From Acetobacter orleanensis (GTDB lineage: Bacteria > Pseudomonadota > Alphaproteobacteria > Acetobacterales > Acetobacteraceae), in assembly GCF_001581005.1 (NCBI RefSeq), contig NZ_LHZV01000059.1:1-64000 (forward strand): DNA of 64,000 nt, read 5' to 3'. Numbering within the stretch: the stretch's first letter is position 1; each line of letters begins with the position of its first letter. The position numbers were made by a program, and so were the translations under genes. The notes beneath the pieces were generated by a model. The model worked only from the letters and a program-made list of their open reading frames with translations. It did no database searches and was not told where the DNA came from. Positions 35,602 through 62,424 of the stretch are shown here, piece by piece.

Positions 35602-38037
35602 TTAGGGAATGGCATTAAGCGCCATCATCTTCCAGCCAGCGGACGTGTAAACAGCAGGAGTGTCATCATCGGCATCATAGACTGTTGTGCCAATGGGTAG
35701 GCCGCTCATGGCTTTAATCGCCACGCGGGAAAATGTGGGCAGGCGAACACCACCAGCCGGTGTCAGCGCGCCGCTCAGATTTTCATTCCCTGCCGTATCT
35801 AGGAGACGTAAAGCGGTGCTGCCGTTGGCGTCCCGCAGGCCGTTGGCGGTATAACCTGTTGTGATCACACCTGTGGGCTCCCACGCTATAGCTTGCCCGC
35901 TCCCCAACCTGAACGCCTGTGGTGTGCTCAGCCCAGACAGATTGACACCTATGGCCGCCGTTCCGGTAAGTGTCACTGCGCTGGCGGAGGTGTTGTTTAC
36001 GTTCGTGGTCATACCGCTATTCAGACTGCTGCCTGTCAGGGTTTCGTTTCCGCCCTGGTCCAGCGTACGCAAGACCGTTCCACCCCAAGCATCCTGCAAT
36101 TTACTATTTGCAAAACTGGTCTTTACAGTTCCTGTCTGCTCCCACGACACATTTTGCCCACCCGCCAGACGCAGCGCGTCTGGTGCGGTAAGGCCCGTGG
36201 TATCCAACCCGATGGCAGCAGTACCCTGCGCCACAAAAGCGCCTGCCGTGGGCTGGGTGAGGCTGACAATCGTTTGGCTATTATGAATAGCGCCCGGAAT
36301 AGTCTCATTCCCCTGTGTGTCCAGCGTACGCGCTACGCCTGCGGCAACCTGATCTATCAGTTGTCCATTGGTAAAGCGCGTTTGCACAACAGCAGTTGGC
36401 TCCCATGACAGAGCCTGCCCCGCACCCAGCCGCATAGCCTCCGGCGTGTTCAGGTTTGCCAGATTCAGGCCTATGAGCGCCTGCCCGCCAAGGGTCCAAG
36501 CAATCCCACTGCCGGGGTTGGCGATTGCGGTTGTGATATCTCCATTCATCCCCACCGAAAAAAGTGGTGTGGTGTCATACCAGTAGCGGAGGGTATAAGC
36601 TGCGGAATCAAACTGAAAATGCGGCTTGTGATCATCGCTAAACGCAAGATTTCGATTTGCGCCGATATTCAGCACCGGGGCATTATTAACGGGTGTGCTA
36701 CGTGAGAGATCAATACCCGCTGTGTCAAACCGACCGGCTGCGTCAAGCATGATGCCATAAGTGCTGGTGCTGTCATTATTGCCTAGCGCAATACCCTTAC
36801 CGATACGACCCGGCGTTCCGCTGCTGCTCGCCCCGGCAATCTGGAGTTGGAGGCCAATGCGCCAGTTATTGGGATCATCCGCATTGGCATAGACATCAAT
36901 CTCCCGCCCGACCAGACTACCAGCAATGTTGGAAGGCTGGCCGGTGTCATCACGGGTTTCATCATAACCAGCCCAGATCTGGGACCGAGAGCCCTTGCCG
37001 TCCGCCAGCGCATTGGCGGGCCGTTGGGCCATACTGGCCTGCGCCACATGCTGGCCGCTACCAAAGGCCGCGCTGTTCAGCACGGTGGAATGACACCAGA
37101 CATAATCATTCAGCGCCGCCCCGACGGAGGGAATGGTGCAGTTCCCTTTTTCCAGATTCATCACAAAGCCTGTGGTGCCACCGGAATGGGTAATGTCCAG
37201 ATCCTTGCGCAGCACGGGCGGCATGTCCGCCGCGGTCTGGCCTCGGGCAAAATATTTTCCGCCTTCCAGCGTACTTTCCAGCACGTCCGTGCCCAAACTG
37301 GTCAGCGGACCGCCATCAGCCTGCATGGTACCGTTAGCCTGCCACAAATTGGGCGCGTTACCCGTGGGCGGAGCCGTAAGAGCAAGTTTGCCTGCGGGAA
37401 GCCGAATGACTGCCCCGGACGAAGCCGCATTTTTAGCCGCCTGAAGGGCAGCGGTATCATCCGTTTTGCCGTCCAGCGCTAAACCGAAATCCTTCGCGTT
37501 CAACAGATCCGCAAACCGGGCGGCCAATGGTCTGCCCACCGCCCCTTGCGCACCAATTTTTGCTGTCGCGGTAGACAGATCGCCAGAAACCGGCGCGGTT
37601 ACTGCACCGTTTGCGTCCAGAGCTGCCACACCATTGGGAGCCCCTTTGTCTGACTGCTGCACGCTGCCATCCGCCATGGCACCAATTTGCCCGATAGTGG
37701 CGTTCTGCCACAGAGCGGGCACGCCTGTTGCGGCATCCAACCCACCCGGTGGGTGCGTAGGCAGATAAGGCGGACTGCTGCTGGCCAGAGAGGAAACCGC
37801 CAGTAAGCTGCGCAGACGCACAGGTGGCGTGGCGATACCCTTTGGTGTGTTAAGGGCTTCCGTAGAAAACGAAGAAACCGTTGGATCAGTTTTGGAAAAA
37901 TGCTGAGGCTGCCAGACGGACTGGTATTCCGGTAGCATATGGTTGGGCCGCGCTGATGCCGCAACCCCGACACCAACCAGAAGAGCGATACCCGAACACA
38001 GGCTGAGCAAAAAACGTATCTTTAGAAGAGTGCTCAT
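35602..38037 (-). CDS. Phage tail fibre/spike-type protein with signal-like N-terminus and three internal repeats
   Basis: About 811 residues. The N-terminus MSTLLKIRFLLSLCSGIALL followed by VGVGVAASA looks like a signal peptide or membrane segment, unusual for a phage fibre. A middle part around 165-200 (LLNAKDFGLALDGKTDDTAALQAA) is the pectate-lyase-like tailspike start motif. The C-terminal region carries three ~86-residue repeats (see repeat entry) and a short end domain. It probably binds the host surface. The ATG overlaps the previous gene stop. It is the last gene of the cluster on the left. Confidence 0.7.
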   Translation of the reverse strand: MSTLLKIRFLLSLCSGIALLVGVGVAASARPNHMLPEYQSVWQPQHFSKTDPTVSSFSTEALNTPKGIATPPVRLRSLLAVSSLASSSPPYLPTHPPGGLDAATGVPALWQNATIGQIGAMADGSVQQSDKGAPNGVAALDANGAVTAPVSGDLSTATAKIGAQGAVGRPLAARFADLLNAKDFGLALDGKTDDTAALQAAKNAASSGAVIRLPAGKLALTAPPTGNAPNLWQANGTMQADGGPLTSLGTDVLESTLEGGKYFARGQTAADMPPVLRKDLDITHSGGTTGFVMNLEKGNCTIPSVGAALNDYVWCHSTVLNSAAFGSGQHVAQASMAQRPANALADGKGSRSQIWAGYDETRDDTGQPSNIAGSLVGREIDVYANADDPNNWRIGLQLQIAGASSSGTPGRIGKGIALGNNDSTSTYGIMLDAAGRFDTAGIDLSRSTPVNNAPVLNIGANRNLAFSDDHKPHFQFDSAAYTLRYWYDTTPLFSVGMNGDITTAIANPGSGIAWTLGGQALIGLNLANLNTPEAMRLGAGQALSWEPTAVVQTRFTNGQLIDQVAAGVARTLDTQGNETIPGAIHNSQTIVSLTQPTAGAFVAQGTAAIGLDTTGLTAPDALRLAGGQNVSWEQTGTVKTSFANSKLQDAWGGTVLRTLDQGGNETLTGSSLNSGMTTNVNNTSASAVTLTGTAAIGVNLSGLSTPQAFRLGSGQAIAWEPTGVITTGYTANGLRDANGSTALRLLDTAGNENLSGALTPAGGVRLPTFSRVAIKAMSGLPIGTTVYDADDDTPAVYTSAGWKMMALNAIP
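35800..36500 (-). repeat. Three tandem ~260-base repeats in the tail fibre gene
   Basis: Each unit encodes a segment like TPEAMRLGAGQALSWEP, APDALRLAGGQNVSWEQ or TPQAFRLGSGQAIAWEP, followed by TLDxxGNE. The conserved starts lie near 36,395-36,480, 36,135-36,220 and 35,875-35,955. Units have diverged, so they are old duplications. Confidence 0.75.
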
Positions 38038-38600: not shown

Positions 38601-38611
38601 GGGTTCTCCCG

Positions 38612-39139
38612 TTACGCGATAAGATAGGGGGTTCCGGACGGGCCGGTGAGAATTGCGCCACCCGGCAGTGCGATGGCGTTGGGCGGCACAGGTGTACCAT
38701 CTGCCAGACACGGCACTGGTTGAGGCTCGGCGGCCGGTGCTTCCGCCAAAATGGCCACAGCGATGGGCTGCACAAGACTACGCCCCTGCTGGGTGGTAAC
38801 AGCCACCCGCACCTGCTGGACCGTGCCGGGCACACCGCCGCCGAGAAAAACACATGCCATGCCGTGCAGAAGTGTTGTCCACACCACGGTAAGATCGGTT
38901 GAAGTGCCGGTAGCCGTTAAAACATCCGCTTGAACAGACGCCAGATAATCTCCTGTTCCACAAAGCCAGCTTTGTGGATCAAGCGTGAAATCCAGATTAT
39001 CGCCACTGGCCTTGGGAGCCCATGCCAGACAGACCTCTTCCGCCACCAGTCCACGCAGACGCAAGCCCGGTGGGCGCGTGAGCGGAATAGTGCGTGCGGC
39101 AGCGGGCTGCCAATTGGGAGACGGCAGAGGCGCTGTCAT
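38612..39139 (-). CDS. Phage-cluster protein of unknown function
   Basis: 175 residues; the ATG at 39137-39139 overlaps the fibre-assembly-like gene. A beta-rich domain (LDFTLDPQSWLCGTGDYL) and a C-terminal VPPNAIALPGGAILTGPSG segment are seen. No family is recognised; the location suggests a fibre or baseplate accessory. Confidence 0.5.
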   Translation of the reverse strand: MTAPLPSPNWQPAAARTIPLTRPPGLRLRGLVAEEVCLAWAPKASGDNLDFTLDPQSWLCGTGDYLASVQADVLTATGTSTDLTVVWTTLLHGMACVFLGGGVPGTVQQVRVAVTTQQGRSLVQPIAVAILAEAPAAEPQPVPCLADGTPVPPNAIALPGGAILTGPSGTPYLIA

Positions 39140-39564
39140 GCTGGAGCCTCCGGCAATGTTGTGCTGCTGGTATCCTGTCCATCTGCAAGAGCTCGCAGGG
39201 CTTTGAGGTATGTCACCCATGCTTCGGGCGTAGGATCATTCAACACGCCATACTCCGCCCAGACTGTCTGACGCGCAGCGATGAGCGCCGTCTTGGCCTG
39301 TGCCGACAGGGACAGGGGCCGGAGGGGAGGCAGATAATCCACAATATTTCCATCCTGCACACCCCGGCCTGTAGGCAGGCGGAAACGGGTTGTATCGGCC
39401 CAATCTTCCGCACTGACAGCAATCAGGCTGGCTACGGGCGGCACGGTGGCGAGGCTGCCCATGCTCCATGTGTCATACCAGCCTGTTACGGCCGTGGGTT
39501 GGGGGTCTGTTGGGTTAAAAGCCGCATAATAACGGGCAGGATAAGCTGTTTTTGTGTCTATCAT
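39136..39564 (-). CDS. Phage tail fibre assembly-like protein
   Basis: 142 residues. A PARYYAAFNPTDPQPT start, aromatic pairs (WYDTW) and a C-terminal helix (AWVTYLKALRALADGQ) resemble tail-fibre assembly chaperones, which often follow the fibre gene as here. The assignment rests mainly on position. Confidence 0.55.
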   Translation of the reverse strand: MIDTKTAYPARYYAAFNPTDPQPTAVTGWYDTWSMGSLATVPPVASLIAVSAEDWADTTRFRLPTGRGVQDGNIVDYLPPLRPLSLSAQAKTALIAARQTVWAEYGVLNDPTPEAWVTYLKALRALADGQDTSSTTLPEAPA

Positions 39565-40637
39565 TACTTTGGCCCGATTGCGATGATTGACACGGTTTTG
39601 TTGTGATCACCGCTTGTAGAAGGAATATTGATGGCAAACTGCGTGCTGGACCAGTTATAAGTCCACACATCCATATCCCCGTCCTGACTGGTGTTGGCGA
39701 GAACCGCCACAGGAATACCGGAAAAAGCAACCGGAAAAGTCACATAATTTGTTCCACCAGCGGAGTTTTGGACATTTGGCACAGTAAAGGCCTGAATACG
39801 GTGCCCATATGCAAGATTGATAACGCGGCTGTCTTCTGTTCCGAAATCATTATTATACGTGCTGGAAGCAACATAATTTTTCAGATCAGACGCGTGGGCA
39901 ACTCCTTGCAGGTCGGAGGTATACGCAACGTCTCCGAACTGGCTGTCATGAATACGTGTATTCTGGCCCCATCCAACAAAACGCCATGATCCATCAGAAA
40001 ATTGTAGAGACATTAGGGCGCTGAACGTTGTGCCCACTTTTTCCTGAAGGCCGACATAAAACTTTCCACCCCGCCCCTCCGCTATGGAACCAAAGGTTGG
40101 ATAGTTGATGAAGTCACCGGTCTGCGGGTTAGTAGGACTAGCCTGCGCGATAATTCCGCCAAAGCCTTCCTGCACCAGTTGCCCCGACACATTCAGCCAC
40201 GACACTGTGCCACCTGAAAGAGGCAAATAGCCTGAAAACAGATTTTGCCAGCGTGCCCCGGCCGCACCGGGAGGAGAGACGTTATCGTCCGCCGTGGAAA
40301 CCCAGAATGTACCGGGTGTAGAACCTGCCACAACGGCACCGGCAGGGTAGCCACCAATGGCCTGCGCAAACCCAGCATCAAACATCCCCCAGCATCCAGC
40401 CTGATAGGCCTGAAGAATTTTTGAAATGAGATTAAGCAAACCATTCATGTCCTGCCCGCGCGGCGGCACCCCCCCTGCGGAACGCGCTATGAAGGTTTCC
40501 GGTGGAAAACCTAGCGCGAGCGAGACTGTGCCATCTCCCGTACTGGCCTGTGTGGCAGGGATTGCTGAAACATCACTGGCGGCGGCATTCTGTGCGATGG
40601 GCACCGCAAAACGCTGTGGAAAATCAGACTGCTTCAT
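39564..40637 (-). CDS. Phage tail fibre protein
   Basis: 357 residues. FPQRFAVPIAQNA and QDMNGLLNLISKILQAYQAG at the N-terminus (about 1-75) are typical of fibres that attach to the baseplate. The C-terminal part (NYVTFPVAFSGIPVAVLANT) resembles the gp53-like fibre tip domain. It overlaps the DUF2612 gene by four bases and is followed by the assembly-like gene. Confidence 0.75.
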   Translation of the reverse strand: MKQSDFPQRFAVPIAQNAAASDVSAIPATQASTGDGTVSLALGFPPETFIARSAGGVPPRGQDMNGLLNLISKILQAYQAGCWGMFDAGFAQAIGGYPAGAVVAGSTPGTFWVSTADDNVSPPGAAGARWQNLFSGYLPLSGGTVSWLNVSGQLVQEGFGGIIAQASPTNPQTGDFINYPTFGSIAEGRGGKFYVGLQEKVGTTFSALMSLQFSDGSWRFVGWGQNTRIHDSQFGDVAYTSDLQGVAHASDLKNYVASSTYNNDFGTEDSRVINLAYGHRIQAFTVPNVQNSAGGTNYVTFPVAFSGIPVAVLANTSQDGDMDVWTYNWSSTQFAINIPSTSGDHNKTVSIIAIGPK

Positions 40638-41209
40638 GCTTGCCCCCTAATGGCATAAGAGACGGCGACACCGGCAGGACGTGGCAGGACGCCGCTGCTT
40701 TGAATGATGGAAGCCTGCACATCTGTCGGGATAAAATTGAAAACATAGGTCATGCTCATATCTCCGTGGTCCTCCACCCATGCATCGCCCTGCCCCACAA
40801 ACAACGCCAACAAAATGGCATTCAGGCTGAGAACGGACCCATCCGTGATATTAGCCATAGCCTTGGCATAAATGAGTTGCCGGAACCCTTCATCCGACAG
40901 GCTCACATTACTACTGGTGGCAGTCCCTTTGTACCATGCCGCTGTGTTAAATCCTTGCTCGGTAAGGTCTGCTGCTTCTGCAAAACCGATAAAATTTTCA
41001 GAAGAAATTGTGAGCACGCGTTGCACGCCCACAATCCGCCCCCATACGTCCAACCCGTAGCCTTGCGCGGTGACGATATTCCATATCCTGTCATACCACT
41101 GGTCAATAAGCGCTGCTGGATCAAGCGCCTGATTCCACGCGGCGATGATGTTGTTGAGGCTAGGAGCACAGGCATATTGCGAGAGGATGGTTTTCTGTAC
41201 ATCCTGCAT
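40634..41209 (-). CDS. DUF2612-type phage tail/baseplate protein
   Basis: 191 residues. AWNQALDPAALIDQWYDRIWNI and TAQGYGLDVWGRIVGVQR are strong DUF2612 features; these proteins sit at the baseplate wedge, next to gpJ, as gpI/gp48 analogues. Start and J stop overlap as TAATG. It is conserved in contractile-tail phages of proteobacteria. Confidence 0.75.
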   Translation of the reverse strand: MQDVQKTILSQYACAPSLNNIIAAWNQALDPAALIDQWYDRIWNIVTAQGYGLDVWGRIVGVQRVLTISSENFIGFAEAADLTEQGFNTAAWYKGTATSSNVSLSDEGFRQLIYAKAMANITDGSVLSLNAILLALFVGQGDAWVEDHGDMSMTYVFNFIPTDVQASIIQSSGVLPRPAGVAVSYAIRGQA

Positions 41210-42468
41210 TACACCTGCTCCACAGCAATGGTGCTACTGTCCAGTGTCGGGATCTGGTCTGCCTGTATCTGCACAGTAAAGCCGGTGGGGTTTACGCCGG
41301 TGCCCACTGTAATTTCCGTAATCTGCACCCAAGGCCCAAGTGCTGCCACGGCGGCATAAAACCGACTGGCGTAGATTGTGCCGCCAATACGGACGCGTGT
41401 ACCGCCATCATCTCCCAGAAAAGCAGACTGGATAGCCGCCTGAATATCTGTTGTCACGGTGGACGGCACCGCAGCGGAAGACGCAATACACACGGTAACA
41501 TAAACCGGCGTGGCAACAGGCCTTTGAAAACTGACCGTATAGCTTGGCGGTGTGCCATATGTACCGGCAGGGTCCGTCACCGTAACGGTCGTGCTGCCGT
41601 TATATGCGCAGCCGGGTGGCTTTTTACGCAGGATGGCCAGTGCAATATCCGCATCCGCTCCGCCATTGGCACAGACATACAGGCTATGCGGAGCGAGTGT
41701 TACGCCACCGACTGTCACGCTCGCAGTAGTGCTATTGTCCATAACATATGCGTCCGTCACGCCAGAGACAGCCTGCACAGAAGCGGAAATAGCATCCAGA
41801 GGGCCAATAGCGTTCAGGGCAACGGATGTTTTACGCCGTGCCTCAAACGCTGTTCGACTCTCCACCGCACGACCTGTGACCCCCGCTATGGGGTTGTTAA
41901 CCGCACTCCATCCTGCAACGGATTGACTAATGGTGACACTACCTGAAGGACAGACAACCTCCCCGACGCTGGTACAGGTAAAACTGCCTTGCACGGTGCC
42001 GGTAGCATCCAGTGTAAGGACGGTATCCGCCGTATAGCTGTTGCCGGACTGATCTGTAATGAGGGCACCTTGCGGAATGACCGTTCCCGCCGCCCCGGTG
42101 CAGACGCAAGTCACAGTGGTGCGTGTTGCTGGCAGGCGGGACATAAAATAAAGCCGCCCAATAGCATCCTGCATCCGGCCTTGCGCGCGCGCAGGATCTA
42201 CACCGTTGGCAAGGGCCAGAAATTGATCATACGTATCCCCCAGAATAGCCGTGAGCGACATGGCAAGCTGGCCCTGCGGGGTGGAAAGGTCGGTATTTAG
42301 GGTATTGCCAAAAGCGGCGTTGATGTCGGCAAGAACGCCGGTGAGCATGTCTGCTTCCTCCGGCATGATAAAGCCTGTGGCATTCAGTATCGGAGCCGGG
42401 ACGGAGGTGGTGCCCATAGAGGATACGCCTGTGATGGAATTAGAGGCTGACAACTGTGCGGCTCCCAT
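41209..42468 (-). CDS. Baseplate assembly protein J (gp47-like)
   Basis: 419 residues. The baseplate_J domain has GFIMPEEADMLTGVLADINAAF at the start, GRLYFMSRLPATRTTVTCVC with Gly-rich beta, then VSGVTDAYVMDNSTTASVTVGG and a C-terminal beta domain. It forms wedge units of a contractile baseplate. The ATG at 42468 overlaps the W-like gene by 29 bases; an alternative ATG is at 42417. Confidence 0.85.
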   Translation of the reverse strand: MGAAQLSASNSITGVSSMGTTSVPAPILNATGFIMPEEADMLTGVLADINAAFGNTLNTDLSTPQGQLAMSLTAILGDTYDQFLALANGVDPARAQGRMQDAIGRLYFMSRLPATRTTVTCVCTGAAGTVIPQGALITDQSGNSYTADTVLTLDATGTVQGSFTCTSVGEVVCPSGSVTISQSVAGWSAVNNPIAGVTGRAVESRTAFEARRKTSVALNAIGPLDAISASVQAVSGVTDAYVMDNSTTASVTVGGVTLAPHSLYVCANGGADADIALAILRKKPPGCAYNGSTTVTVTDPAGTYGTPPSYTVSFQRPVATPVYVTVCIASSAAVPSTVTTDIQAAIQSAFLGDDGGTRVRIGGTIYASRFYAAVAALGPWVQITEITVGTGVNPTGFTVQIQADQIPTLDSSTIAVEQV

Positions 42469-42793
42469 CGGTAAGAGTAAGCTGGATCACGCCGGACAAG
42501 CGGCGGGCGGGACTGAGGCCAGTAAGAACACATACGGCTTGTGCGACGCCCTCTACGCTCAAGGCTATTTGCTCCACATCCGCCCTAAACAAGGCGGCGG
42601 ACTGGGTGCGCCCCAGAATATTGGTGAGGTAAGGCAGCCCGAGCGCCGTGTTGTACCAACATTCCCCCAGAAACACGCGCACCGCACAAGCAACGTTCTG
42701 TGCGACGGCATAAGGGGCTGAGGCGACAGCAATGTTGCCTCCGGCATCGACCACCAAATCCCACGTTGATCTGTCGAGAAGCAGGGTTTGCAT
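42440..42793 (-). CDS. Baseplate wedge protein, gpW/gp25-like
   Basis: 117 residues from the ATG at 42791-42793. WDLVVDAGGNIAVASAPYAVAQNVACAVRVFLGECWYNT followed by LGLPYLTNILG are typical of gp25-like wedge proteins. It is the first gene to the left of the inserted catalase, so its promoter must lie in the 42794-43180 gap or read through the catalase region. Confidence 0.75.
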   Translation of the reverse strand: MQTLLLDRSTWDLVVDAGGNIAVASAPYAVAQNVACAVRVFLGECWYNTALGLPYLTNILGRTQSAALFRADVEQIALSVEGVAQAVCVLTGLSPARRLSGVIQLTLTDGSRTVVSL

Positions 42794-43180
42794 CTGGAGG
42801 ACTCTTTTGCGTGTGAAGGGAGGAATATGAGCACCGTCATCAAAGAGCGGCGCGTACGTTGGCACTACGGAGGATGAGGCCCAGCATGTACGAACGCTAG
42901 GAATGACCACGCGCATACGCAACCAGCATATTAACGACAAAAGTGAATAGGCGTTATCCGGAAGCAGCCCGGAAGATCAGGCAACTTTGCCTTTCTGGTG
43001 GCGTTGAGCACACAGATACGCGACGGCGTGGGTTTTGAAGGCTACTGTCCAGCCCTACATTCTGCACGTCCTGTGAGGTGTGGTCGTGTTAAGGCTGGAG
43101 GTCACCACAGAAGCATCTGCTGCGGACCATATCTTGACAGTGCCGTCGTTTTTGATTTCAGAAGGCAGAGGGACAGCACC
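42794..43180. other. Junction between baseplate W gene and inserted catalase
   Basis: 387 bases without a clear gene. The leftward frame of the W gene stays open to about 42940 but has no phage-like similarity. TTGACA at 43134-43139 could be a -35 box of katE, but no -10 box sits at the right distance. A small hairpin (AGGCAACTTTGCCT at about 42980-42993) marks the region. I see no target-site duplication. Confidence 0.45.
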
Positions 43181-47215: not shown

Positions 47216-47247
47216 GATGCGGGAAATCCGAAAAGAGTGAGAGCAGG

Positions 47248-49407: not shown

Positions 49408-49411
49408 ATGA

Positions 49412-52947: not shown

Positions 52948-53114
52948 GCAGGTTTTCCTGATGCTGTGGAGCACGGACAAGGGAAAGAGAAACGGTGTGT
53001 TATCCCGTGAATGGTCGGAAGAGCTGACCACGGAACATCTGCCAGCCTGTTCAGCCAGCACCATGCGATGCAGGACTATGGGACCGAACGATTCTATGAA
53101 CGGGATATTTGCCC

Positions 53115-53707: not shown

Positions 53708-54874
53708 TTACTGGGCTTCGACAGAGGCCAGAGCGATGGACTGTACGGACTGCCCATCCATGTAGAAAAACCTTCCCTGCACCGTGCCGCGCGCGGCACG
53801 GACGGCGGCGGACGCGGTGGACGCGCCCGGCAGCAGATACCAGCCTCGAGTGGACAGGACGGCATCAATACTCCGCCCGGCATCCGCATTGACGGCCTGC
53901 TTCTGTGCATCAGACAGAGTGACGTTAGGCTGGATGGCCCCAAAGGACAGGGCGGTATCAATCGTGCCCTGTACCGCCGTGGCAATCAGGGAATCTCCCA
54001 CTGCGTTATAGGGAATTTGCCCCGCATTGGAGAACAGGCTGATGAGGTCATTCTGGAAGCTGGCGTTCATCCAGATCTGGTTGATATAGCTGTCCGCCCA
54101 TGAAAAAGGGCCGGATACAGCGCCATTATTCAGAAAGCTGAATGTGGTATCCGTGCTTTTGTAAGACCCGTAAAAACTGTAGCCATTGCCCAGAAGCGCC
54201 TGCGCTTGTGAGGCCGTAAGGCTGGCCGGGGGCACACCGCTATTATTGCGGAACATGAGCGTGGTGCGGCCACTGGCCCGGTTGGGATTGATGCTCGCGG
54301 CCCAGCCAAGGCAGAGGGCGGCGGCCAGCGTGCCACCAGTGCCGGGGCTGTCCGTGTTGCACACGCACGTCAGGCCCGGTGTGCTGGCGGCGTTGACTGT
54401 CGCGCCGAAACTTGCGGCCGCGTTGGCGCTGAGGATGGTGGCGTCACTATCCTGCACAACGCCCCAGTAGCGGTTGGGGTGGGCCGCCAGCCATGTGGCG
54501 ATCTGGGTTTTGGCGGCGGCGTCCGGTTCCTGCGCGAATAGGAAGGGGCCCCAGTCCGTTGCCTGATCGGCTGCGGTGGAGAGGTAGGTGCCGTAGTCCG
54601 TGGCGACCGGAGAGGCCGGAATCTGGAACAGATACAGTTTTTCCGGCGTGTCCTGCGCGTTGGTGTAGGCCGAGAAATAGATACTGGCGGTGCTGGCTTC
54701 CACAGAGGTCGCGCCGCAGGTTGCGGCAACCTCCGCCGCAGAAGCGAATGTGGACACGCCTGACGGCAGAACGGTGTTCTGAGAAAAGACCATGCCATTC
54801 AGCAGGCTGACGGTGCCACCCGGAGAGAGAACGCCCGGAGTGACGGTAACAAGGGAGCTGATGGGGAGCGTCAT
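53708..54874 (-). CDS. Phage tail sheath protein (DUF3383)
   Basis: 388 residues from the ATG at 54872-54874. MTLPISSLVTVTPGVLSPGG and VVQDSDATILSANAAASFG are characteristic DUF3383 segments; these proteins form contractile sheaths in several myophages. The C-terminal LPGASTASAAVRAARGTVQG is also conserved. The start overlaps the previous gene stop by four bases. Confidence 0.85.
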   Translation of the reverse strand: MTLPISSLVTVTPGVLSPGGTVSLLNGMVFSQNTVLPSGVSTFASAAEVAATCGATSVEASTASIYFSAYTNAQDTPEKLYLFQIPASPVATDYGTYLSTAADQATDWGPFLFAQEPDAAAKTQIATWLAAHPNRYWGVVQDSDATILSANAAASFGATVNAASTPGLTCVCNTDSPGTGGTLAAALCLGWAASINPNRASGRTTLMFRNNSGVPPASLTASQAQALLGNGYSFYGSYKSTDTTFSFLNNGAVSGPFSWADSYINQIWMNASFQNDLISLFSNAGQIPYNAVGDSLIATAVQGTIDTALSFGAIQPNVTLSDAQKQAVNADAGRSIDAVLSTRGWYLLPGASTASAAVRAARGTVQGRFFYMDGQSVQSIALASVEAQ

Positions 54875-55650
54875 GCGGAAGGGAAACCCTGTGGACTGGT
54901 GACATCTGCCAGCACAAGCCGGGCGGCAGAGGCCATTGGTTGCGGGAGTGTGAGGACGAAGCTGGCCTGAAGGTGGAGGTCGATCTGCCACTGCTCTTCA
55001 TATTGTCGCTCCCCGTTGACGAACGGGATCTGGCGGGCTGGCCCGGCATAGAGCGGGGCGATGCGCGGGGGTGGCCCTGAAGCAGACTGGCCAGCGGACT
55101 GACCTGAAGACGGGACTGAAAACTGGGCCGCAGACGTGCCCGCAAACGGGGTGGACGCGGGCATGACGCAAGCGGGTGGGACAGCAGAAGACGCGGCGGA
55201 CCGGGCGACCGGGAGGCAGGCTGGAGGCGGCTGGCAGGAAAACGAACTGGCGGGACCGGGTGTGACAGAGCCGAGGAATGAGGGATTCTCAGACAATGCG
55301 GTGAAAAATTCCGCCGCCCAGCCATTCTGGAACAGGGTGCTGAGAGCCTGTGCATTATCCGCAGCACCCTGCCCGAACAGGCTGACCTGCACCGTACTCT
55401 CCTGCTGTTGCAGAATGATGCGGCTGGTCGCGGTGTAGCGCGTGGCGCTTGTGGCGATGCGCTGGTGCAGCAGTACCGTCATGAGCACGAAAGGGCCGTT
55501 GGGGGCGGCCATGCGGTTCTGTCTGGCCAGCAGCACCGGTGTATCCGGCGGCAGGACGGCCAGCAGAAATGCCCGCAGCGCCGTGGTGATGGCCGCCGTT
55601 ACAGGGGGCAGGCTGGCGGACATTGTCGGGTAACCAGAAGTTTCGACCAT
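54871..55650 (-). CDS. Phage neck/tail terminator-like protein
   Basis: About 259 residues from the ATG at 55650, which has GAGGCGG upstream; an ATG at 55623 (MSASLPP) is an alternative. VLLHQRIATSATRYTATSRII and VQVSLFGQGAADNAQALSTLF are typical of neck terminator gp12-like proteins. A Pro/Ser-rich insert of about 60 residues is between the two halves. It seals the head-tail joint. Confidence 0.65.
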   Translation of the reverse strand: MVETSGYPTMSASLPPVTAAITTALRAFLLAVLPPDTPVLLARQNRMAAPNGPFVLMTVLLHQRIATSATRYTATSRIILQQQESTVQVSLFGQGAADNAQALSTLFQNGWAAEFFTALSENPSFLGSVTPGPASSFSCQPPPACLPVARSAASSAVPPACVMPASTPFAGTSAAQFSVPSSGQSAGQSASGPPPRIAPLYAGPARQIPFVNGERQYEEQWQIDLHLQASFVLTLPQPMASAARLVLADVTSPQGFPSA

Positions 55651-55988
55651 TGGCCGCCTCCCCATGTTTCGGGCTGACCTGTGACCAGCCATTCCGAGCC
55701 TTCGAACATCAGAAGGTCACCGCCGAACTGGTGGGCGCGGTCTATGCCCTTGAGTTCCGCAGGCAGGTACACCACGCGGGTGTCTGTGCTTTGATTCAGC
55801 CCCGCGACCTGCGCGAGATCCTCGCTGGGGGCGGGCTGCACCATGATTGGGAGCAGAACCTCCACATATTGAGGGACAACCGTACCATCGGGCTGTGTGA
55901 TGTTGCCCTCCTGCGCGCGCAGGGTGGCGAGGACAGGGGGCGTCAGACCGCTGACCTGTGCGGCGGCGAGACGGAACAGGCCCTTCAT
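55599..55988 (-). CDS. Phage head-tail joining protein
   Basis: 129 residues. DGTVVPQYVEVLLPIMVQPAP and DLLMFEGSEWLVTGQPETWGGG resemble small neck-type proteins of the cluster's order (adaptor, morphogenesis, neck). No firm family name can be given. It overlaps the morphogenesis gene by four bases. Confidence 0.6.
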   Translation of the reverse strand: MKGLFRLAAAQVSGLTPPVLATLRAQEGNITQPDGTVVPQYVEVLLPIMVQPAPSEDLAQVAGLNQSTDTRVVYLPAELKGIDRAHQFGGDLLMFEGSEWLVTGQPETWGGGQWSKLLVTRQCPPACPL

Positions 55989-56479
55989 CCCTCCACCTGA
56001 AAGCTGACACCGTTCTGCAATGTTCCTGTTTCCAGAAGCGGTTTATCAAACCCCTTATGCCGGATTGTGGCCGGGGCATTGGAGGGCGTGTGCGTCTGCC
56101 GGATGGTCTGTGTGATATCCGCCTGCATGGTTTTCCCTACTGTGGTCAGCGCCTGTGTGGGAGCGCTGAGGCGCTGGACAAGGGTGTTCAGGGGCGGCTC
56201 TGTGGTCCCTGCCCCGCCAGCGCGGAGAGTGGCTTTGAGGGCCTCGGCCAGCTGGCGCACCCATGCGCTGCGCCGTTGCGCGACTGTCTGACGCAGGAAA
56301 GGGTGCGGCGGGATGATGACGCTGTGCCCGCCCCTGCCCCGCACCACGGCACCAAACTCCTGCACGGCTGCGATCGCGGCGACGGGGGTGCCGTCTGCTT
56401 CTGTAGCCGTTTTGAAAAATCCGGCTTTTACGCCGGGATTTCGGGGGGATATGGCGGGTGGCGGCGAAGAAAGGGGCAT
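55985..56479 (-). CDS. Phage virion morphogenesis / head completion protein (HK97 gp10-like)
   Basis: 164 residues. VAAIAAVQEFGAVVRGRGGHSVI followed by PPHPFLRQTVAQR is the 'E-x-G, I-P-x-R-P-F-x-R' hallmark of gp10/morphogenesis proteins, with helical middle and C-terminal KPLLETGTLQNGVSF. It completes the head-tail connector. The rather long family member matches those in contractile phages. Confidence 0.72.
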   Translation of the reverse strand: MPLSSPPPAISPRNPGVKAGFFKTATEADGTPVAAIAAVQEFGAVVRGRGGHSVIIPPHPFLRQTVAQRRSAWVRQLAEALKATLRAGGAGTTEPPLNTLVQRLSAPTQALTTVGKTMQADITQTIRQTHTPSNAPATIRHKGFDKPLLETGTLQNGVSFQVEG

Positions 56480-56545
56480 GGGAGACAGGCTTTCTCTGGG
56501 AAGAGAGTATGGGAGGGTCTGCCGGAAATGATCAGCGACCTATTT

Positions 56546-56971
56546 TTATGGCCATGACAGCGGCGTTTGCGGGAAACCCGGAACATATCGGGCCGTGCGC
56601 AGGAAGGCTGTGGCTGCCCAGTAGGCCGCGCCATAGGGGGTTTGCGCCCACCATGCCTGAGAGGCCGTGACCGGCCCCATATCGGCCTCGACCGCCACGC
56701 TGCCCATTCTGGCAGAGGTGATGCGGCCAACCAGTGCGGGTTGGTCCGTGCCGGGTGTCGCCACACCAAACCCCAGTTGCGCCAGATGGGCGGTGATAAG
56801 CCCCAGCAGAGTGGCGCGACGCGTCAGGTCCGGGACGGGCGAGGTGTCATCATTCGCAAGAAACAGACTGGCCTGATCAAAACAGGCCTGTGCGCCCTCC
56901 GCCCCGACAGTGGTAAACAGGGCAGGATAACGGACTTGCCAGACCTGCACGTCAAACAGCACGGAGGGCAT
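56546..56971 (-). CDS. DUF4054 head-tail adaptor protein
   Basis: 141 residues. [39 protein letters not shown] and [18 protein letters not shown] are typical for DUF4054 adaptor proteins lying after the capsid gene. C-terminal [20 protein letters not shown] is also conserved. Confidence 0.8.
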
Positions 56972-57164: not shown

Positions 57165-57485
57165 TCAGACCGGTGTTATGCCGGGGGCTGGCGTGGCGGG
57201 GTTGAGAGGTTCCGTGCCTGTGCGGAGTGTTGCCTGCTCCCGCGCCTGTCCGGTGGCTTTTTCCACCGTATTCTGTGCGAAGATCAGGCCGTTTTTCAAC
57301 GGTGGAAAATCCGCATAGGCGCGGGACCATGCGGCCCAGAATTCTGCCGGGACAGGGGTCAGCCCATAGCCGCCAACAACTGCGGACGCACGGGTACCTG
57401 CCAGTTCATGCCGGGCCGCCCCCAGCGAGAGGATGAGGCCATTGGGCAGTTTGCAGCCGATGGTGACAGTAGACGGTATGGCCAT
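57165..57485 (-). CDS. Conserved small phage protein of the capsid region
   Basis: 106 residues from the ATG at 57483-57485. TIGCKLPNGLILSLG and VVGGYGLTPVPAEFWAAW, then FPPLKNGLIFAQNTVEKATG, match a family that sits between the DUF2184 capsid and DUF4054 genes in such clusters. It probably is a minor head or tail-tip component; function unknown. Confidence 0.65.
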   Translation of the reverse strand: MAIPSTVTIGCKLPNGLILSLGAARHELAGTRASAVVGGYGLTPVPAEFWAAWSRAYADFPPLKNGLIFAQNTVEKATGQAREQATLRTGTEPLNPATPAPGITPV

Positions 57486-57598
57486 GCCGGGGGCTTCCTT
57501 GCAATAACATGTTTGGCAAAAAATCAGGTTTGCCGACGCGGTGGAGAGTGTCCTAGGACCGCGCCGGGCAGACAGGTGAGCGACGCTGTAAGACGCCG

Positions 57599-58636
57599 TT
57601 ACAGACCCGTCATGGTGGCGATGCCAGCGGGGACATAGATGACGGCACCCCATGTGCCCTGAGACAGCTTCTGTTTCCATGCGGAAGCTTCCGTTACCAC
57701 GGCATGGGTGCGGAGTTTTTCCGTAAAGGCTGTTTCCGCCGTTTTCTGCGCGCCGACATGCTCCGCCATAACCTGCATGGTCTGGACAGTGCTGCCCGTG
57801 GCGTCTCCATACTCGACAGCCTGCACAAAACGCAGGTTGGGGTATGAGTCTTTCAGCAGGGAGGCAGCAGATAGACCGAAGCTGTTACGGCGGGTGAGCA
57901 GGCCCATGCGCGTGGGGGAAAGGCCGACGACCATCGGGGTTTCCGTATCCACCAGCCCCGCCGTCTGGCTGCGCAACTGGTTGATGAGGGCGATGACGTC
58001 ATCCTGCCGCTCTTCCGGCGTGGCGACTGTCCAGTCCGTCCCGCCAGCCGCCTTGACGGCGGGGGTGATGGCGGCAGGCAGGCGCGGGTCATTCAGATAC
58101 CCGTACAGGCGCAGACCGCTGATACCGAAAAAGTAGGTCTGGTTCTGGAATTTGTTCAGCTTGAGCGCAGCGGCTTCCCGCAGACTGGCCGCCCACTGGA
58201 GGCGGGCCTGACCGGCGAGGGCCAGTTCCATTTCCCCCCATGAGACGAAGACCTGATAATGGTAGGACTGGCGATCCGGGTAGGTCGGGTTCAGGCTGAC
58301 CTGCCCGTTGCCGTTCCAGTCCCCATAACTGGACACTTCGCCTGTGGTCTCGATCATCGGGAAAATGGCCGTGCGGGTCACCCAGTTCCCCTTGCGGACT
58401 TCCCCCAGCAGTTCCGCCGCACGCATGGGGGCGAACGCGACCTTGATGAGCGCCGGGTCCACCCATGCGCTCATGAAGGCCGGAATGCCGCCGCTGGCGG
58501 TTGTGGACAGCGCGGGCTGGGCATCCTGCGCCAGAGCATCTGACGCAAGCAGGCTGTTGGCGATCATGCCGCGTGCTTCCGGCATGATGAAGCCGAGGCG
58601 GTTGAGTTCAGCCAGATGTGTTGTGAAATCGCTCAT
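57599..58636 (-). CDS. Major capsid protein (DUF2184)
   Basis: 345 residues. ELLGEVRKGNWVTRTAIFPM, YHYQVFVSWGEMELALAG and LKLNKFQNQTYFFGISGLRL are hallmarks of the DUF2184 major capsid family. It overlaps the cement protein by four bases and is followed by adaptor genes, which supports the capsid call. An HK97-like fold is expected from the family. Confidence 0.85.
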   Translation of the reverse strand: MSDFTTHLAELNRLGFIMPEARGMIANSLLASDALAQDAQPALSTTASGGIPAFMSAWVDPALIKVAFAPMRAAELLGEVRKGNWVTRTAIFPMIETTGEVSSYGDWNGNGQVSLNPTYPDRQSYHYQVFVSWGEMELALAGQARLQWAASLREAAALKLNKFQNQTYFFGISGLRLYGYLNDPRLPAAITPAVKAAGGTDWTVATPEERQDDVIALINQLRSQTAGLVDTETPMVVGLSPTRMGLLTRRNSFGLSAASLLKDSYPNLRFVQAVEYGDATGSTVQTMQVMAEHVGAQKTAETAFTEKLRTHAVVTEASAWKQKLSQGTWGAVIYVPAGIATMTGL

Positions 58637-59136
58637 ACAGCGTGGCTCCAGCTTGAAGTTTTGACAAGTTCACCCGCAGCACAAGCCGAGGCGACGTAAA
58701 AGCGGGTCTGCACCGCGCCGGAGACCGTGCTTCCGGCTGCGGCGGTGCTGAGACTGCCGTTCGTAGTGGAGGCGAACACGGCCTGACCCGGTGTGGCGGC
58801 GGTGGTGGTGCTGGCCCAGAAATCTCCTGCCGTGAACAGGCTGACCGGGAAACCCTGCGGGATGATCTGGGTGCTTTCATCAAACAGGCTGCTGATCTGG
58901 CCTGTGAGATCCCGATGCACGAAGCCATCCGGGGCGGTGGTGGCACCGTTGGCGGGCGCGTTGGCCACGCTGCGGCCATCGGCCTGCACCCAGCCGAACG
59001 CGCCTATGGTGCAGCCTCCGGCAGCGGCGACCAGTGCGCCCTCCCCTGCCGGGAAAGTGGCCGTCGGGTTGAGGGATGCGAACGCCCCCGGCAGACCGGG
59101 AGCGGGCTGGGTGTTGATCTGTGTCTGAAATGCCAT
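58633..59136 (-). CDS. Capsid structural cement protein (Gp24-like)
   Basis: 167 residues. MAFQTQINTQPAPGLPGAF is the family start; CTIGAFGWVQADGRSV, GFVHRDLTGQISSLFDE and IPQGFPVSLFTAGDFWAST follow. Gp24-type proteins decorate and stabilise the capsid. It starts 4 bases after the protease/scaffold stop and overlaps the capsid gene. Confidence 0.82.
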   Translation of the reverse strand: MAFQTQINTQPAPGLPGAFASLNPTATFPAGEGALVAAAGGCTIGAFGWVQADGRSVANAPANGATTAPDGFVHRDLTGQISSLFDESTQIIPQGFPVSLFTAGDFWASTTTAATPGQAVFASTTNGSLSTAAAGSTVSGAVQTRFYVASACAAGELVKTSSWSHAV

Positions 59137-59139
59137 GGA

Positions 59140-60498
59140 TTATGCTTTCACCGTAATGCGGCCAAGACCGAACGTGTCCCGAAAAGAGGTGGTTTTCTCT
59201 GCATCCATACCGAGCGGAGACGTGTGGAATTTCAGGCGAGCGACTTGCTGGAACAGCGGTTTGTAAGCCTCTTCCGGCAGGCCGGTGAGGTCCACGCCCT
59301 GCTCACGCAGCGCAAAGCCATAAACGGCGGTCGCGCTGTCCATTGTGACATCCCCTACAAACGGACGCACTGCGGCACGAGCCGCATGAAGAGCGTCCAT
59401 CCGGCGAATCACTTCTGCTTCCGCCTGCTGCACAGCCTGCGTCAGGGCGGCGTCCATGGTGGTGGGTGCTGGCGTTGTGGACGTTGAAGTACCCGCCGTT
59501 GATATAGATAGTGCTCCGGACGGCTGTGGTGTGGGGGGAAACTGGGTAAGCGAGGCTGAAGCAGCGGTCGGGCTACCGGAGTGGGGCTGTGTACCGGCGG
59601 GAAAGGTGGTGGGACACGTGGCTAGGGATATCATGGAGGATAGAACAGGCTCCGTGACGGAGGATGATACCAAAGGTATTGAGAAAGCGTTTGGCCCTGC
59701 CAGAGTGTTTTCAGTCTGCCCGAAGAAAGGTCGGGAAGGGTCGGGCTGCGGAGGTGTGGGCTGTGTCATGAAGGCATGATCCCTGTGCGGGGCGGAGGCG
59801 GAATCACCAATAATGGCGGTTGTCACACGCGGCTGGGTGACGAGGGCGAGGTGGTTAAAGGTGATGTCTGTCATGGTCAGGCTGTACGGGGTGCCGTCCT
59901 GCACACCACTTTGCGGGAGTGCGCGGTAGCGATAGCCTGCGGAGACGGCGCGTTGCTGCCCGCTCTCGATTGCGGCAATGGCAGCGTGGTCCCATACCGT
60001 CAAGCTGCCGATCAGATCGGGGCTTTCAAACCGGATATCGCTCCCGACAGCCCCGACGGTGATCTCTTTTGGGTGGTCTTGCGCCGAGACCGGCTGGTGC
60101 TGCATGAGAATGGGTTTGCCCGCCATGCTGGCGGCGGCGCGGGCCAGTGCCTGTGGGTCCCGATACACCTGATATAGCCTGTCCGGCTCTAGCCCTAGAG
60201 CCTCCGCGCCGGGAATTTCCGACCCGTAATAGGGGCAGACCGTGGCGGCGGAGAGGATGCAGCGGGTGATATGCAGATGACCATCGACATCGGTGTGGCG
60301 CACGGAGCGGTCCAGCGCCAGAACGACGGCATCCCTGCGCTGGCGGGGAGTGGCACTCCTGGTCATGGCGGGTGGGATGCCAAAACTTGAGGGGATGCTG
60401 TCAGAAATGCGGGAACCGGGGGCTGTGGTATACTGGGGAGAGGACGGGTCAGGAGGTGTCATGCGTTGTCCTGTCTCGGGATTTTGGAACTGTGGCAT
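59140..60498 (-). CDS. DUF2213 prohead protease/scaffold-like protein
   Basis: 452 residues. The N-terminal domain (about 60-235) has [47 protein letters not shown] and [14 protein letters not shown], which define DUF2213 (prohead maturation). The C-terminal half is Thr/Pro/Ser-rich then helical ([22 protein letters not shown]), likely scaffold. The ATG at 60498 may be too early; M45 at 60366 is possible. It lies 178 bases after the portal gene. Confidence 0.8.
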
Positions 60499-60675
60499 AA
60501 GGAGCCGGGAGCAGATGGGCTGCTTTTTGCGGCGCGAGCTTCCGAAAGCGGGCGGTCAGGGTGCTGGCGGATTGCGCGCGGCGATGGATGGTCTGACGGT
60601 AGCAGGCACAGAAATAGCTGGGGCTGGCGGACCAGATCCGACGATCTGGCAAGAACAAACCCGGCGGCGGACGGG

Positions 60676-62424
60676 TCAGGCCGCTGGCGGTGTGCCTGCG
60701 AGATTGACGGCAGCATACTGGCCACCAGCGTCATGCGCGGTGCGGGACCGGGCTTCCGTGGGGGTGATGATGCCGGAGCGGATGTTCTGGGCATCGATAT
60801 CTGCACGGGTTTTCTGAAGTGTGGCGCGGGCGAGTTCATCCATCTGCCAGAGGGAGACGAAGGTAAAGTCGATATCCGGGTCGATTTCACCCCACAGGTT
60901 CAGCATGACCATGTGCAGGATGGTGGTCAGGTTCCTGCGGTAAAATGTTTCCTGAAAAGCATGCACACGATCATAAAAAACCCGGATTTCACCATCGGCT
61001 GAAGCGTTCAGGCCGCTGGGCGTGATGCCGGTGAATTTGACCAGAGGTTCCTGCGCCACCGCGCACATCTGCTCCTGCGCCTGTGCCTGAAGCCGGTCTA
61101 GCCCGGCAAGAGGGGCCGCCAGAAGCTCCAGTTTCTCCCTGTCCTTATCCAGAACGAAGGTGCCGCGATTGGAGCGGAAGCGATTGAAGGCTTCCACACG
61201 GCTCAGCAGCCCTTCCGGGTCCTGCGCATAGGCGGACATGTCTGTCGAGAGCGCCACGATGGAAAACGCATTGAGCAGGTCCGACACAGACTGACGGGTG
61301 CGCAGCCAGTTATCCACCGCAGGGCGCGCCATTTGCGAAAGAGACAACCCGCCAAAATTATAAGCAGGTTTGAGAAGGTCCGGTACCGGGCGCGATACAA
61401 ACTGCAACAGCCGTGTGCTGTGCAGCAGGCCGCCCTGCACCCACCAGCGGCTAGGCTGGTAGAACTCTGCGCTGAGGGGATTTGTGGTGTCATACTGGTC
61501 TGGTGTGGTCCAGACGGGTTCGATCGGCACGAGCGCGCGGAGGGAACCTTTACGGAAAGTTTCCGGGCGGAGCAGCAGGGGTGTTTCCAGCGCGCCGCCA
61601 GTACGGGGCTGGCCGGTATCCACATAGAGCAGACCCATGCCGTAATAGCCGTCATACTCCGCCATGCGGCGCAGGACATCCCGCACGTTCAGGCGGAGGA
61701 AGTCACGTTCCAGATCCGCAAGGCGCTGCTTTTTGTCCGCCGTGCCCCGGGCGCGGAAGGTGATCCATTCCCGCGTGGCTTCAGCCGCGATGACTTCCAC
61801 CATATGACGGTATTCAGCCCGCTGGGACATTTCCGCCAGACGAGGATAGCCGGGAAAGGCCACGCCCTCCGCCACGGCCTGCCGCAGCCAGCCCAGCAGA
61901 CCGGGATTGGTGGCTGCGGCACTGTCCATGACCAGATGGGTCCGGCCATCCCCGCGAACACCTTTGGGCGGCTGGTAGGGGCGGAAAATATCCGCCTGCC
62001 CCATGTGGCTTTGCGGACGAAGAGTTTCCGCCAGCGCGCGCGGGCCGATGCCGGTGGAAGCCGGTTGAGTCGAAAGCACAGGATCGCAGGGCAGTCTCAG
62101 GCGGGGTTCTTTACGAGAAGTGAGCTGAGAATCTGGTGTGGTGGCTTTTGTGGAGGCTTTGCTGTGCGCGCTTGCGGAAACGAGCGTCGGGCAACTGCTT
62201 GCGGGGAGGGACATCGCGGCGCTGGTCGGCTGGGAAGAACGCGATGTGCGCAGGCTGGTTGGAAGGCGACAAGATTGCGAGGAAAACCAGCGGGAGAGGA
62301 AGGAATTACGAAGCACGAGAAGGACACTCCAGAACAGAGGGTGCGCGGCAGTAAGAGAAACAGGCGGTGCGTGCTGGGTGTTGCTTTGCGATAGTGGCGC
62401 GGGGTTGCCGATGGTAGAGTCCAC
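60676..62424 (-). CDS. Phage portal protein (DUF1073 family)
   Basis: Up to 582 residues. The portal fold is evident from about residue 141 (MGQADIFRPYQPPKG). AEYRHMVEVIAAEATREWITF, MAEYDGYYGMGLLYVD, HSTRLLQFVSRPVPDLLKP and AYNFGGLSLSQMARPAVDN define the DUF1073 portal family. The first 140 residues are Ser/Thr/Pro-rich, unlike family members; a later start at 62004 (M141) is possible. It is the first gene of the leftward cluster; no terminase lies before it. Confidence 0.8.
   Translation of the reverse strand: MDSTIGNPAPLSQSNTQHAPPVSLTAAHPLFWSVLLVLRNSFLSRWFSSQSCRLPTSLRTSRSSQPTSAAMSLPASSCPTLVSASAHSKASTKATTPDSQLTSRKEPRLRLPCDPVLSTQPASTGIGPRALAETLRPQSHMGQADIFRPYQPPKGVRGDGRTHLVMDSAAATNPGLLGWLRQAVAEGVAFPGYPRLAEMSQRAEYRHMVEVIAAEATREWITFRARGTADKKQRLADLERDFLRLNVRDVLRRMAEYDGYYGMGLLYVDTGQPRTGGALETPLLLRPETFRKGSLRALVPIEPVWTTPDQYDTTNPLSAEFYQPSRWWVQGGLLHSTRLLQFVSRPVPDLLKPAYNFGGLSLSQMARPAVDNWLRTRQSVSDLLNAFSIVALSTDMSAYAQDPEGLLSRVEAFNRFRSNRGTFVLDKDREKLELLAAPLAGLDRLQAQAQEQMCAVAQEPLVKFTGITPSGLNASADGEIRVFYDRVHAFQETFYRRNLTTILHMVMLNLWGEIDPDIDFTFVSLWQMDELARATLQKTRADIDAQNIRSGIITPTEARSRTAHDAGGQYAAVNLAGTPPAA

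Follow-up and report, generated by a model that had tools for sequence, protein, structure and literature searches.

What kind of element is the cluster of contractile-tail phage genes that Acetobacter orleanensis carries in positions 1 to 64,000 of contig NZ_LHZV01000059.1 (assembly GCF_001581005.1): a prophage in decay, a phage that still infects, or a particle that the host now passes on as its own? The contig, referred to below as C4, holds 109840 bases of a 3.0 Mb genome in 67 contigs, and the whole stretch analysed, C4:1-64000, is called the window. We put at roughly two in three the probability that the cluster is a contractile-tailed prophage domesticated long ago: settled at one locus in an ancestor of many Acetobacter species, inherited mainly vertically, controlled by a repressor and akin to the PBSX particle of Bacillus subtilis or to gene transfer agents (GTAs).

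An earlier note on the window had described head, neck, tail, baseplate and fibre genes in good order, and PHROG and Pfam matches bear this out. Between 62.4 and 35.6 kb the minus strand encodes, in this order, portal, protease, minor head protein, capsid, connector and neck, sheath, tube, chaperone, putative tape measure, hub, spike, wedges and fibres; the PHROG matches reach an E-value of 9e-107. The proposal of a domesticated particle rather than a decayed prophage is likewise well supported, by mostly shared flanks, broadly congruent trees, purifying selection like that on neighbouring host genes and published particles of the orthologous locus. The reasoning behind it fared less well, since it rested partly on the absence of a terminase and a repressor that in fact lie 2-10 kb past the window edge.

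The locus beyond the window edge

The whole locus measures about 38-40 kb and continues past the window end at 64000. Packaging genes had been thought absent, and a TerL gene was to be sought elsewhere in the genome; the large terminase gene lies on the same contig, within the continuation of the cluster and about 2 kb past the edge (C4:66392-67870, minus strand; phrog_38, E 4e-107). Read by eye, its translation holds what we take to be the Walker-type PPRHGKS motif, the IVDDP motif and the nuclease aspartates. A small gene upstream of it (C4:68052-68549, minus strand) matches no family and is a candidate small terminase by position only. A phrog_16492 family gene (C4:71324-72139) and early gene A (C4:72259-72921) follow on the same strand. 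Control genes had been reported missing too; a CI/S24-type repressor gene is found on the plus strand (C4:73050-73781; phrog_4, E 3e-35), and its A. malorum orthologue matches Peptidase_S24 and HTH_3. In the translation, the serine of GQSMEP, a lysine and an Ala-Gly pair, again read by eye, are presumably those of self-cleaving repressors. Complete phage modules directly outside the window would, in the terms of the earlier note, have spoken against domestication; they are present in part, as terminase and repressor, whereas the contig lacks an integrase and the annotated flanking genes include none recognised as lytic.

Conservation extends into the non-coding DNA between the repressor and the early gene. 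Across 12 aligned genomes this region contains conserved blocks inside otherwise diverged sequence, consisting of a GGGATATATC(A/C)C palindrome and TTGAC...GTGAC(T)GGTCAC..TA, the appearance expected of an operator over an early promoter. A strict alphaproteobacterial-type LexA pattern, using what we presume to be the consensus, gave no match conserved across species, so that the case for SOS control comes from the S24-type repressor and from the induction by mitomycin that others have published.

The other absences hold up better. None of the 25 Phage_integrase matches in this genome falls on C4, and the longest match joining the two ends of the locus is 12 bp, the same as in shuffles and thus no longer than chance, as the earlier report of missing attachment repeats had it. 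The locus has neither the integrase nor the att sites of an integrase-bearing temperate prophage. As to lysis, no gene was recognised among the annotated genes of the cluster and its partly annotated flanks, and the sole GH24 lysozyme match in the genome lies on another contig; the claimed absence stands only that far, the search having covered GH24 among the lysin and holin families and open reading frames (ORFs) of at least 80 aa. That match and one of the 25 integrase matches occur about 33 kb apart on contig C12 (C12:104710-138842), perhaps in a separate prophage able to supply lysis. An R-type tailocin, a tail with no head or packaging genes, does not describe the locus, in which capsid, portal, protease and terminase are present and conserved.

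Inheritance, selection and loss across Acetobacter

A pattern scan based on the capsid alignment and run over 84,980 species genomes found 11 loci of 82-95% identity, all 11 of them in Acetobacter. Within the genus the terminase occurs in 18 of 49 genomes, and neighbouring genes place 17 of these, the present genome included, at this locus; in the other (G261) it sits in another prophage. The left-flank host genes, comprising a 147-aa gene at the border (32992..33435, minus strand), a Na/H exchanger, a TonB receptor, APH and PnuC, are shared whole or in part by 12 of 16 relatives, A. persici among them, and the repressor is found in 13 of the 16, A. orientalis included. Apart from two exceptions discussed below (A. 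farinalis and G228), relatives in which a flank or the repressor was not seen are cut by contig ends. The checks of synteny and selection suggested earlier came out mostly in favour of a resident locus, with the same flanks in those 12 relatives and a median dN/dS of the phage genes of 0.10-0.17.

This median comes from Nei-Gojobori estimates in 10 genome pairs (22-25 phage genes and 3-13 host genes per pair), leaving aside the tape measure and genes 33961, 49412, 63163 and 34801 (mgtC). The corresponding host-gene median was 0.08-0.14, and the highest value for a phage gene, 0.50, belonged to the small gene upstream of the terminase. Among the genes outside the medians, 33961 gave 0.12-0.32, 49412 gave 0.23-0.29 and 63163 gave 0-0.10. 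Phage and host dS could not be told apart in any pair (Mann-Whitney p 0.18-0.97), including the pairs of the present genome with A. farinalis and of A. tropicalis with A. indonesiensis, where the median dS of about 1.0-1.2 is close to saturation for this method.

Another way to view inheritance is through trees, and we compared those of head genes, tail genes, flanking host genes (10 taxa), the rhodanese gene and rpoB, with 300 label shuffles. Head and tail trees differed in 2 of 24 splits, tail and flank in 2 of 14, and head and flank in 4 of 14. Against rpoB, head and tail each differed in 8 of 22 splits and flank in 6 of 14. Where head and tail disagree with rpoB, the conflict concerns the short branches within the pasteurianus group and the positions of A. 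indonesiensis and A. thailandicus. The rhodanese tree differed from head in 10/24, from tail in 8/24 and from flank in 6/14. No shuffle did as well in nine of the ten comparisons, and one of 300 did so for rhodanese against flank. The capsids of the locus are monophyletic (support 96); prophage capsids from elsewhere, among them those of G022 and G028 (74-75%), are not part of this clade, and some off-locus prophage capsids are, by eye, near-identical between genomes with diverged rpoB, for example G014 and G019. The off-locus prophage terminase of G028 belongs to another family (phrog_5902/phrog_2).

A mosaic was seen between A. senegalensis and A. tropicalis (L150/L151 against L033/L034): head, sheath, tube and catalase genes have dS of about 0.05-0.15 and baseplate and fibre genes about 0.4-1.1, a pattern that suggests replacement of modules by recombination.

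Most genes of the locus are intact. The terminase is one open frame in 14 of the 16 genomes or records with a match (the exceptions being A. persici and G001) and the capsid in 13 of 14 (the exception again A. persici). Frame breaks were found in the tube gene of G228, along with its host NhaP gene, in the G001 terminase, in the large fibre gene of A. malorum LMG 1746, at several places in A. persici, and in the small gene beside the capsid in A. malorum DsW_057 and A. senegalensis. Those of A. persici are likely assembly errors, because its rpoB is also split.

The locus is empty in some relatives, an observation that the earlier note would have set against domestication if att sites came with it. 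In 4 of 14 genomes (G003, G019, G002 and G031) just a few hundred bases, free of phage genes, separate the rhodanese gene from the 147-aa gene; the sites lack att sequences, and the clade concerned has an rpoB position that suggests loss. Six of the other genomes are cut by contig ends or missing pieces and three lack the linkage. In the remaining one, G014, the two genes are 4.4 kb apart, and the DNA between them contains a weak homologue of gene 33961. Beyond the rhodanese gene of G031, at a distance of about 4 kb, there is a single homologue (38%) of a tail gene, perhaps a remnant; it is the only phage gene that passed the cut-off in the four empty sites. Since in the rpoB tree of 27 genomes the clade of G003, G014, G017, G019, G021 and G261 has the pasteurianus group, which carries the cluster, as its sister, loss of the cluster in this clade is suggested as the simpler reading, as judged from that one gene. 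A single simple insertion at the junction of the rhodanese and 147-aa genes was considered and does not account for the arrangement: in cluster-bearing loci the terminase and early genes lie beyond the rhodanese gene.

Several of the comparisons weigh against an anciently domesticated locus. The system is dispensable, as 31 of the 49 genus genomes lack the terminase. A. farinalis has different DNA to the left of the cluster. G228 (C1:100001-180000) retains the structural cluster, but over 35 kb upstream of its terminase a repressor and early genes were looked for and not found. G028 has lost its head genes, capsid included, along with most baseplate genes, and still has the terminase and fibre ends; the draft genome G009 shows no head genes. 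Of early genes B and C, all that the present genome (G000) has left is about 30 codons of B. Agreement with rpoB is poorer for the rhodanese tree, where 12 of 22 splits differ, and the putative tape measure has a dN/dS of 0.32-0.66. Two further points of this kind concern published particles and are taken up with them.

Some of these losses are what would be expected of an ancestral prophage that is decaying and is kept by inertia. The deletion in G028, the absence of head genes in G009, the clade-wide absence and the missing early genes or repressor in G228, the present genome and A. farinalis all fit such decay. Early gene B, which encodes a winged-helix, weakly O-like protein, and early gene C were not seen in A. 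farinalis, nor was C in A. malorum LMG 1746. Yet the structural genes are kept where early genes are lost, and, from what the genomes compared contain, it is the early module that erodes while the structural module mostly stays. Frames remain mostly open across a divergence as deep as the median dS of about 1.0-1.2, the median dN/dS stays at 0.10-0.17 and the operator-like DNA is conserved, all of which speaks against inertia. We disfavour decay and consider it very improbable.

Structural genes and the host genes among them

The head genes, all on the minus strand as are the other structural genes, begin with the portal (60676..62424; phrog_146, E 8e-97) and continue through the head maturation protease (59140..60498; phrog_2229, E 9e-107), the minor head protein (58633..59136; phrog_2122, E 1e-61) and the major capsid protein (57599..58636; phrog_264, E 2e-71). 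The small protein beside the capsid gene (57165..57680) matches phrog_2085, a family without assigned function, from residue 70 (E 7e-34), and its start is probably further downstream. Next come a virion structural protein, a connector by position (56546..56971; phrog_302, E 9e-27), a tail completion or neck protein (55985..56479; phrog_222, E 2e-36) and a neck or head-tail protein by position (54871..55692; phrog_1876, E 6e-42, a family without assigned function).

The tail proper consists of the contractile sheath (53708..54991; phrog_205, E 4e-62), the tube, so named by position (53115..53552; phrog_1964, a virion structural protein in PHROG, E 3e-50), which is 80-99% identical across species at the locus, the tail assembly chaperone (52480..53064; phrog_1932, E 5e-37), the putative tape measure (50806..52410) and a tail protein between tape measure and hub (49985..50761; phrog_1830, E 1e-55). 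The putative tape measure is a fast-evolving protein of 534 aa whose matches, to phrog_2013 and phrog_1538, are N-terminal only; it has a Ser/Thr/Pro-rich look and is barely conserved. ORFs in its place measure 345-603 aa in other species and 571-706 aa in the prophage copies of G014, G022, G028 and G017.

The baseplate is represented by the hub (46247..47398; phrog_196, E 3e-39), a spike with an apex motif (45537..46349; PF18946, E 9e-9), a wedge that is W-like by position (42440..42940; phrog_120, E 2e-27), a J-like wedge (41209..42468; phrog_6, E 7e-63) and a baseplate or structural protein (40634..41209; phrog_587, E 1e-66). Of the genes in the fibre region, one encodes a tail fibre protein (39564..40637; phrog_12796, E 1e-34), one a small protein for which no family was found (39136..39564; matched in 9/19 columns) and one a Gp77-like fibre-tail adaptor (38612..39220; PF23148, E 4e-18). 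The last is a tail fibre or tail spike gene (35602..38406; phrog_18522, E 1e-9), also matched in 9/19 columns, whose A. malorum LMG 1746 copy is split over two frames. Base composition steps up near 52 kb: within 38-62 kb of the window, G+C is about 0.49-0.58 across the tail half and 0.59-0.65 across the head half, a sign of mosaic origin.

Host genes are interleaved with this set, mostly on the opposite strand. The mgtC and sodC genes had been taken as ordinary bacterial flanks; the loci compared in relatives lack an orthologue of mgtC (34801), and sodC, the Cu/Zn superoxide dismutase gene (62436..63068, plus strand; PF00080, E 1e-31), lies together with the genes for a peroxiredoxin (plus strand, from 63604 and cut by the window end at 64000), an EamA transporter (C4:64294-65250, plus strand) and a rhodanese (C4:65276-66385, plus strand) between portal and terminase. 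The rhodanese gene holds this place in all compared loci with both sides assembled, and in the four cluster-free genomes it adjoins the 147-aa gene; an antisense ORF over it (65030-66301) was set aside. A long catalase gene (42998..45304, plus strand; PF00199, E 5e-178) stands among the baseplate genes, and beyond the terminase come a sorbosone-type dehydrogenase (C4:69108-70568, plus strand) and glutaredoxin-2 (C4:70599-71327), which, like the DUF4142 gene (47824..48372; PF13628, E 3e-16), is on the phage (minus) strand. The gene at 48695..49294 (plus strand) has no assigned function, with homologues of 46-49% near the rhodanese gene in the cluster-free G003, G002 and G031. A conserved small gene of 86 aa (63163..63423, minus strand) matches no Pfam family and gave a dN/dS of 0.025-0.10 in four pairs and no dN in a fifth.

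The loci seen to have SodC and peroxiredoxin are those of malorum, orleanensis, persici and farinalis. Catalase is present in those of malorum, orleanensis, persici, tropicalis, senegalensis and indonesiensis and absent from that of farinalis. Catalase, SodC, peroxiredoxin and glutaredoxin-2 make a notable concentration of oxidative-stress genes in one phage-derived cluster (42998-45304; 62436-64000; C4:63604-71327).

Published particles and what the locus may do

When the capsid was compared with 50,697 phage records, phiAO1 was the only match to exceed 60%; in a plasmid collection the best match is 47%. Klebsiella, Pseudomonas and Burkholderia phages, listed as phages, have a homologous capsid (DUF2184 in some annotations) at 41-47% identity among the best rows. 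IMG/VR has 29 contigs with a relative, one with a metagenome-style name and the rest with isolate-genome-style names, as judged by reading them. It lists pieces of the locus (L280-L308) as viral contigs, and surveys may in this way count a fixed host locus as virus.

The phiAO1 record (LC644971.1) is the orthologous locus, with the capsid 95.7% and the terminase 88.8% identical. It spans the sorbosone-type dehydrogenase to just before the 147-aa gene and is collinear with the A. malorum LMG 1746 chromosome (88-92% in four blocks), including the same interleaved dehydrogenase, rhodanese (annotated as sulfurtransferase), peroxiredoxin, SodC and catalase genes. No terminal repeat was found in the record, and glutaredoxin-2, the early genes and the repressor lie outside it. 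According to its main text, PMC8566455 describes phiAO1 as particles induced by mitomycin C from A. orleanensis NBRC 3170, with a head of 43.1 nm and a tail of 46.6 nm (n=3), whose DNase-treated fraction, sequenced on a MiSeq, gave 34,100 bp and 40 ORFs; induced particles, and DNA of the locus in the treated fraction, are therefore on record for the orthologue. The same text regards phiAO1 as a phage that is temperate and probably degenerate; alone among six it has no integrase, PHAST called it incomplete, and gene transfer agent, catalase and superoxide are never mentioned. PMC9379143 names phiAO1 among identified phages, and catalase and superoxide are likewise absent from its main text. In the open-licence literature searched, no paper on a domesticated prophage of acetic acid bacteria came up; a prior description elsewhere is possible.

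Could phiAO1, and with it the whole locus, be a temperate phage that still infects, inserting at one favoured site with its integrase lost or outsourced? It was published as a phage with a discrete 34.1-kb genome (PMC8566455), the locus combines a repressor and early genes with a terminase and most of the structural genes, the genus has related capsids at other loci, and integrase-bearing temperate Acetobacter phages have been described (PMC8566455). A single genome of this size in the particle fraction is also unexpected of a purely random packager, the first of the two contrary points deferred above. Opposed to infection are the contig without integrase, trees and dS that follow the host, a phiAO1 record without repressor, early genes or terminal repeat, the loss of early genes B and C in the present genome, and, as the authors of PMC8566455 report, the lack of an integrase in phiAO1 and its incomplete PHAST call. 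We regard infection as unlikely.

Head size offers a further, weak comparison. Scaled on the heads of BhGTA and PBSX-like particles, a 43.1-nm head (n=3) could hardly hold a locus of at least 34 kb; the argument is weak because phiKM1, listed as active in the same table, combines a 47.4-nm head with a genome of 34.1 kb or more (PMC8566455), which is the second contrary point.

GTAs, as set out in PMC9662315, derive from Caudoviricetes, are endogenised and vertically inherited, have heads too small for their locus, carry mostly random host DNA and deliver it to cells; they co-diversify with their hosts, and their heads measure 38 nm in RcGTA and 45 nm in BhGTA, where the head holds 7.5 kb. The present locus encodes Caudoviricete-derived particle proteins, appears by its gene content fully endogenised (the same flanks in most relatives and no integrase on the contig), and is mostly inherited vertically in co-diversification with the host, apart from the left flank of A. 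farinalis and the tropicalis/senegalensis mosaic. It should not be filed as a GTA, because packaging of mostly random host DNA and its delivery to other cells are predictions for it and the head-size comparison points both ways; PBSX-like and GTA-like outcomes are both live.

A relationship with RcGTA itself is not indicated, for its marker GTA_TIM was found in none of 49 genus genomes, with one of 14 control genomes (Caulobacter vibrioides) positive. RcGTA has a non-contractile tail. So do BaGTA and BhGTA as described in PMC9662315, whereas the Acetobacter locus has a gene for a contractile sheath. RcGTA-like clusters were reported in none of 62 Acetobacterales genomes (PMC6821227). We had considered the terminase, which has a match in 101 of 200 family genomes, as an RcGTA relative, and dropped the idea after viewing the neighbours in G160 (Phage_portal_3, DUF2213, Major_capside and DUF3383) and G202 (near a P22-like coat). 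In G160 and G216 (L195, L196), of another genus of the family, the related terminase lies at about 1.77 Mb, in G160 beside head genes of contractile-phage type, possibly in a second fixed cluster.

PBSX is, according to PMC8347963, a mitomycin-inducible locus of about 33 kb that packages random 13-kb pieces of host DNA, and Bp15.1PLP of B. pumilus is myovirus-like, with a 39.5-nm head and about 9 kb of host DNA. Packaging and killing were shown for those two, which belong to another phylum, and their likeness to the Acetobacter locus is one of description. By sequence the locus encodes a sheath, a capsid and an S24-type repressor; mitomycin induction is published for the orthologue (PMC8566455), and the strict pattern gave no conserved LexA-type box. 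An antibacterial particle of the PBSX type, whose contractile tail kills relatives and whose head DNA is incidental, would fit the repressor, the published induction, the contractile tail and the 43-nm head, as well as the strongly diverged fibre genes, the much greater divergence of the baseplate and fibre half, relative to the head half, when A. tropicalis is compared with A. senegalensis, and these two precedents (PMC8347963). A pure killer would have no need of terminase and capsid, and these are constrained as strongly as the tail genes; nor was an immunity gene recognised. We think such a role doubtful.

Somewhat more probable, though still less likely than not, is a contractile-tailed gene transfer agent, domesticated independently in Acetobacter, that would carry host DNA from one acetic acid bacterium to another when DNA is damaged. 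Within the A. malorum/orleanensis/persici group the locus has become interleaved with an oxidative-stress set (catalase, SodC, peroxiredoxin and, where that end is seen, glutaredoxin-2), which its particles may help to spread.

Taking the cluster as a domesticated, repressor-controlled prophage, we infer the following course. DNA damage, acting through RecA, would lead the S24-type repressor to cleave itself; the conserved operator-promoter would then fire, and the early genes would switch on the genes from terminase to fibres. Small-headed contractile particles would form and be filled mainly with pieces of host chromosome, like PBSX and gene transfer agents, which we propose because the locus has no integrase and measures about 38-40 kb. 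Their release may be aided by a lysin encoded elsewhere, and their use would be gene transfer or the killing of relatives.

The significance of such a locus, if this account is true, is that a contractile, terminase-bearing and mainly vertically inherited particle would widen the known products of phage domestication. The published "degenerate" phage phiAO1 would be reinterpreted as this locus, with a predicted particle content, and an easily grown, non-pathogenic genus would allow gene transfer and warfare to be tested directly against each other. Phage-like particles in halted vinegar fermentations are mentioned as an unpublished observation in PMC8566455, and a particle source built into the species of vinegar production would bear on such halted fermentations.

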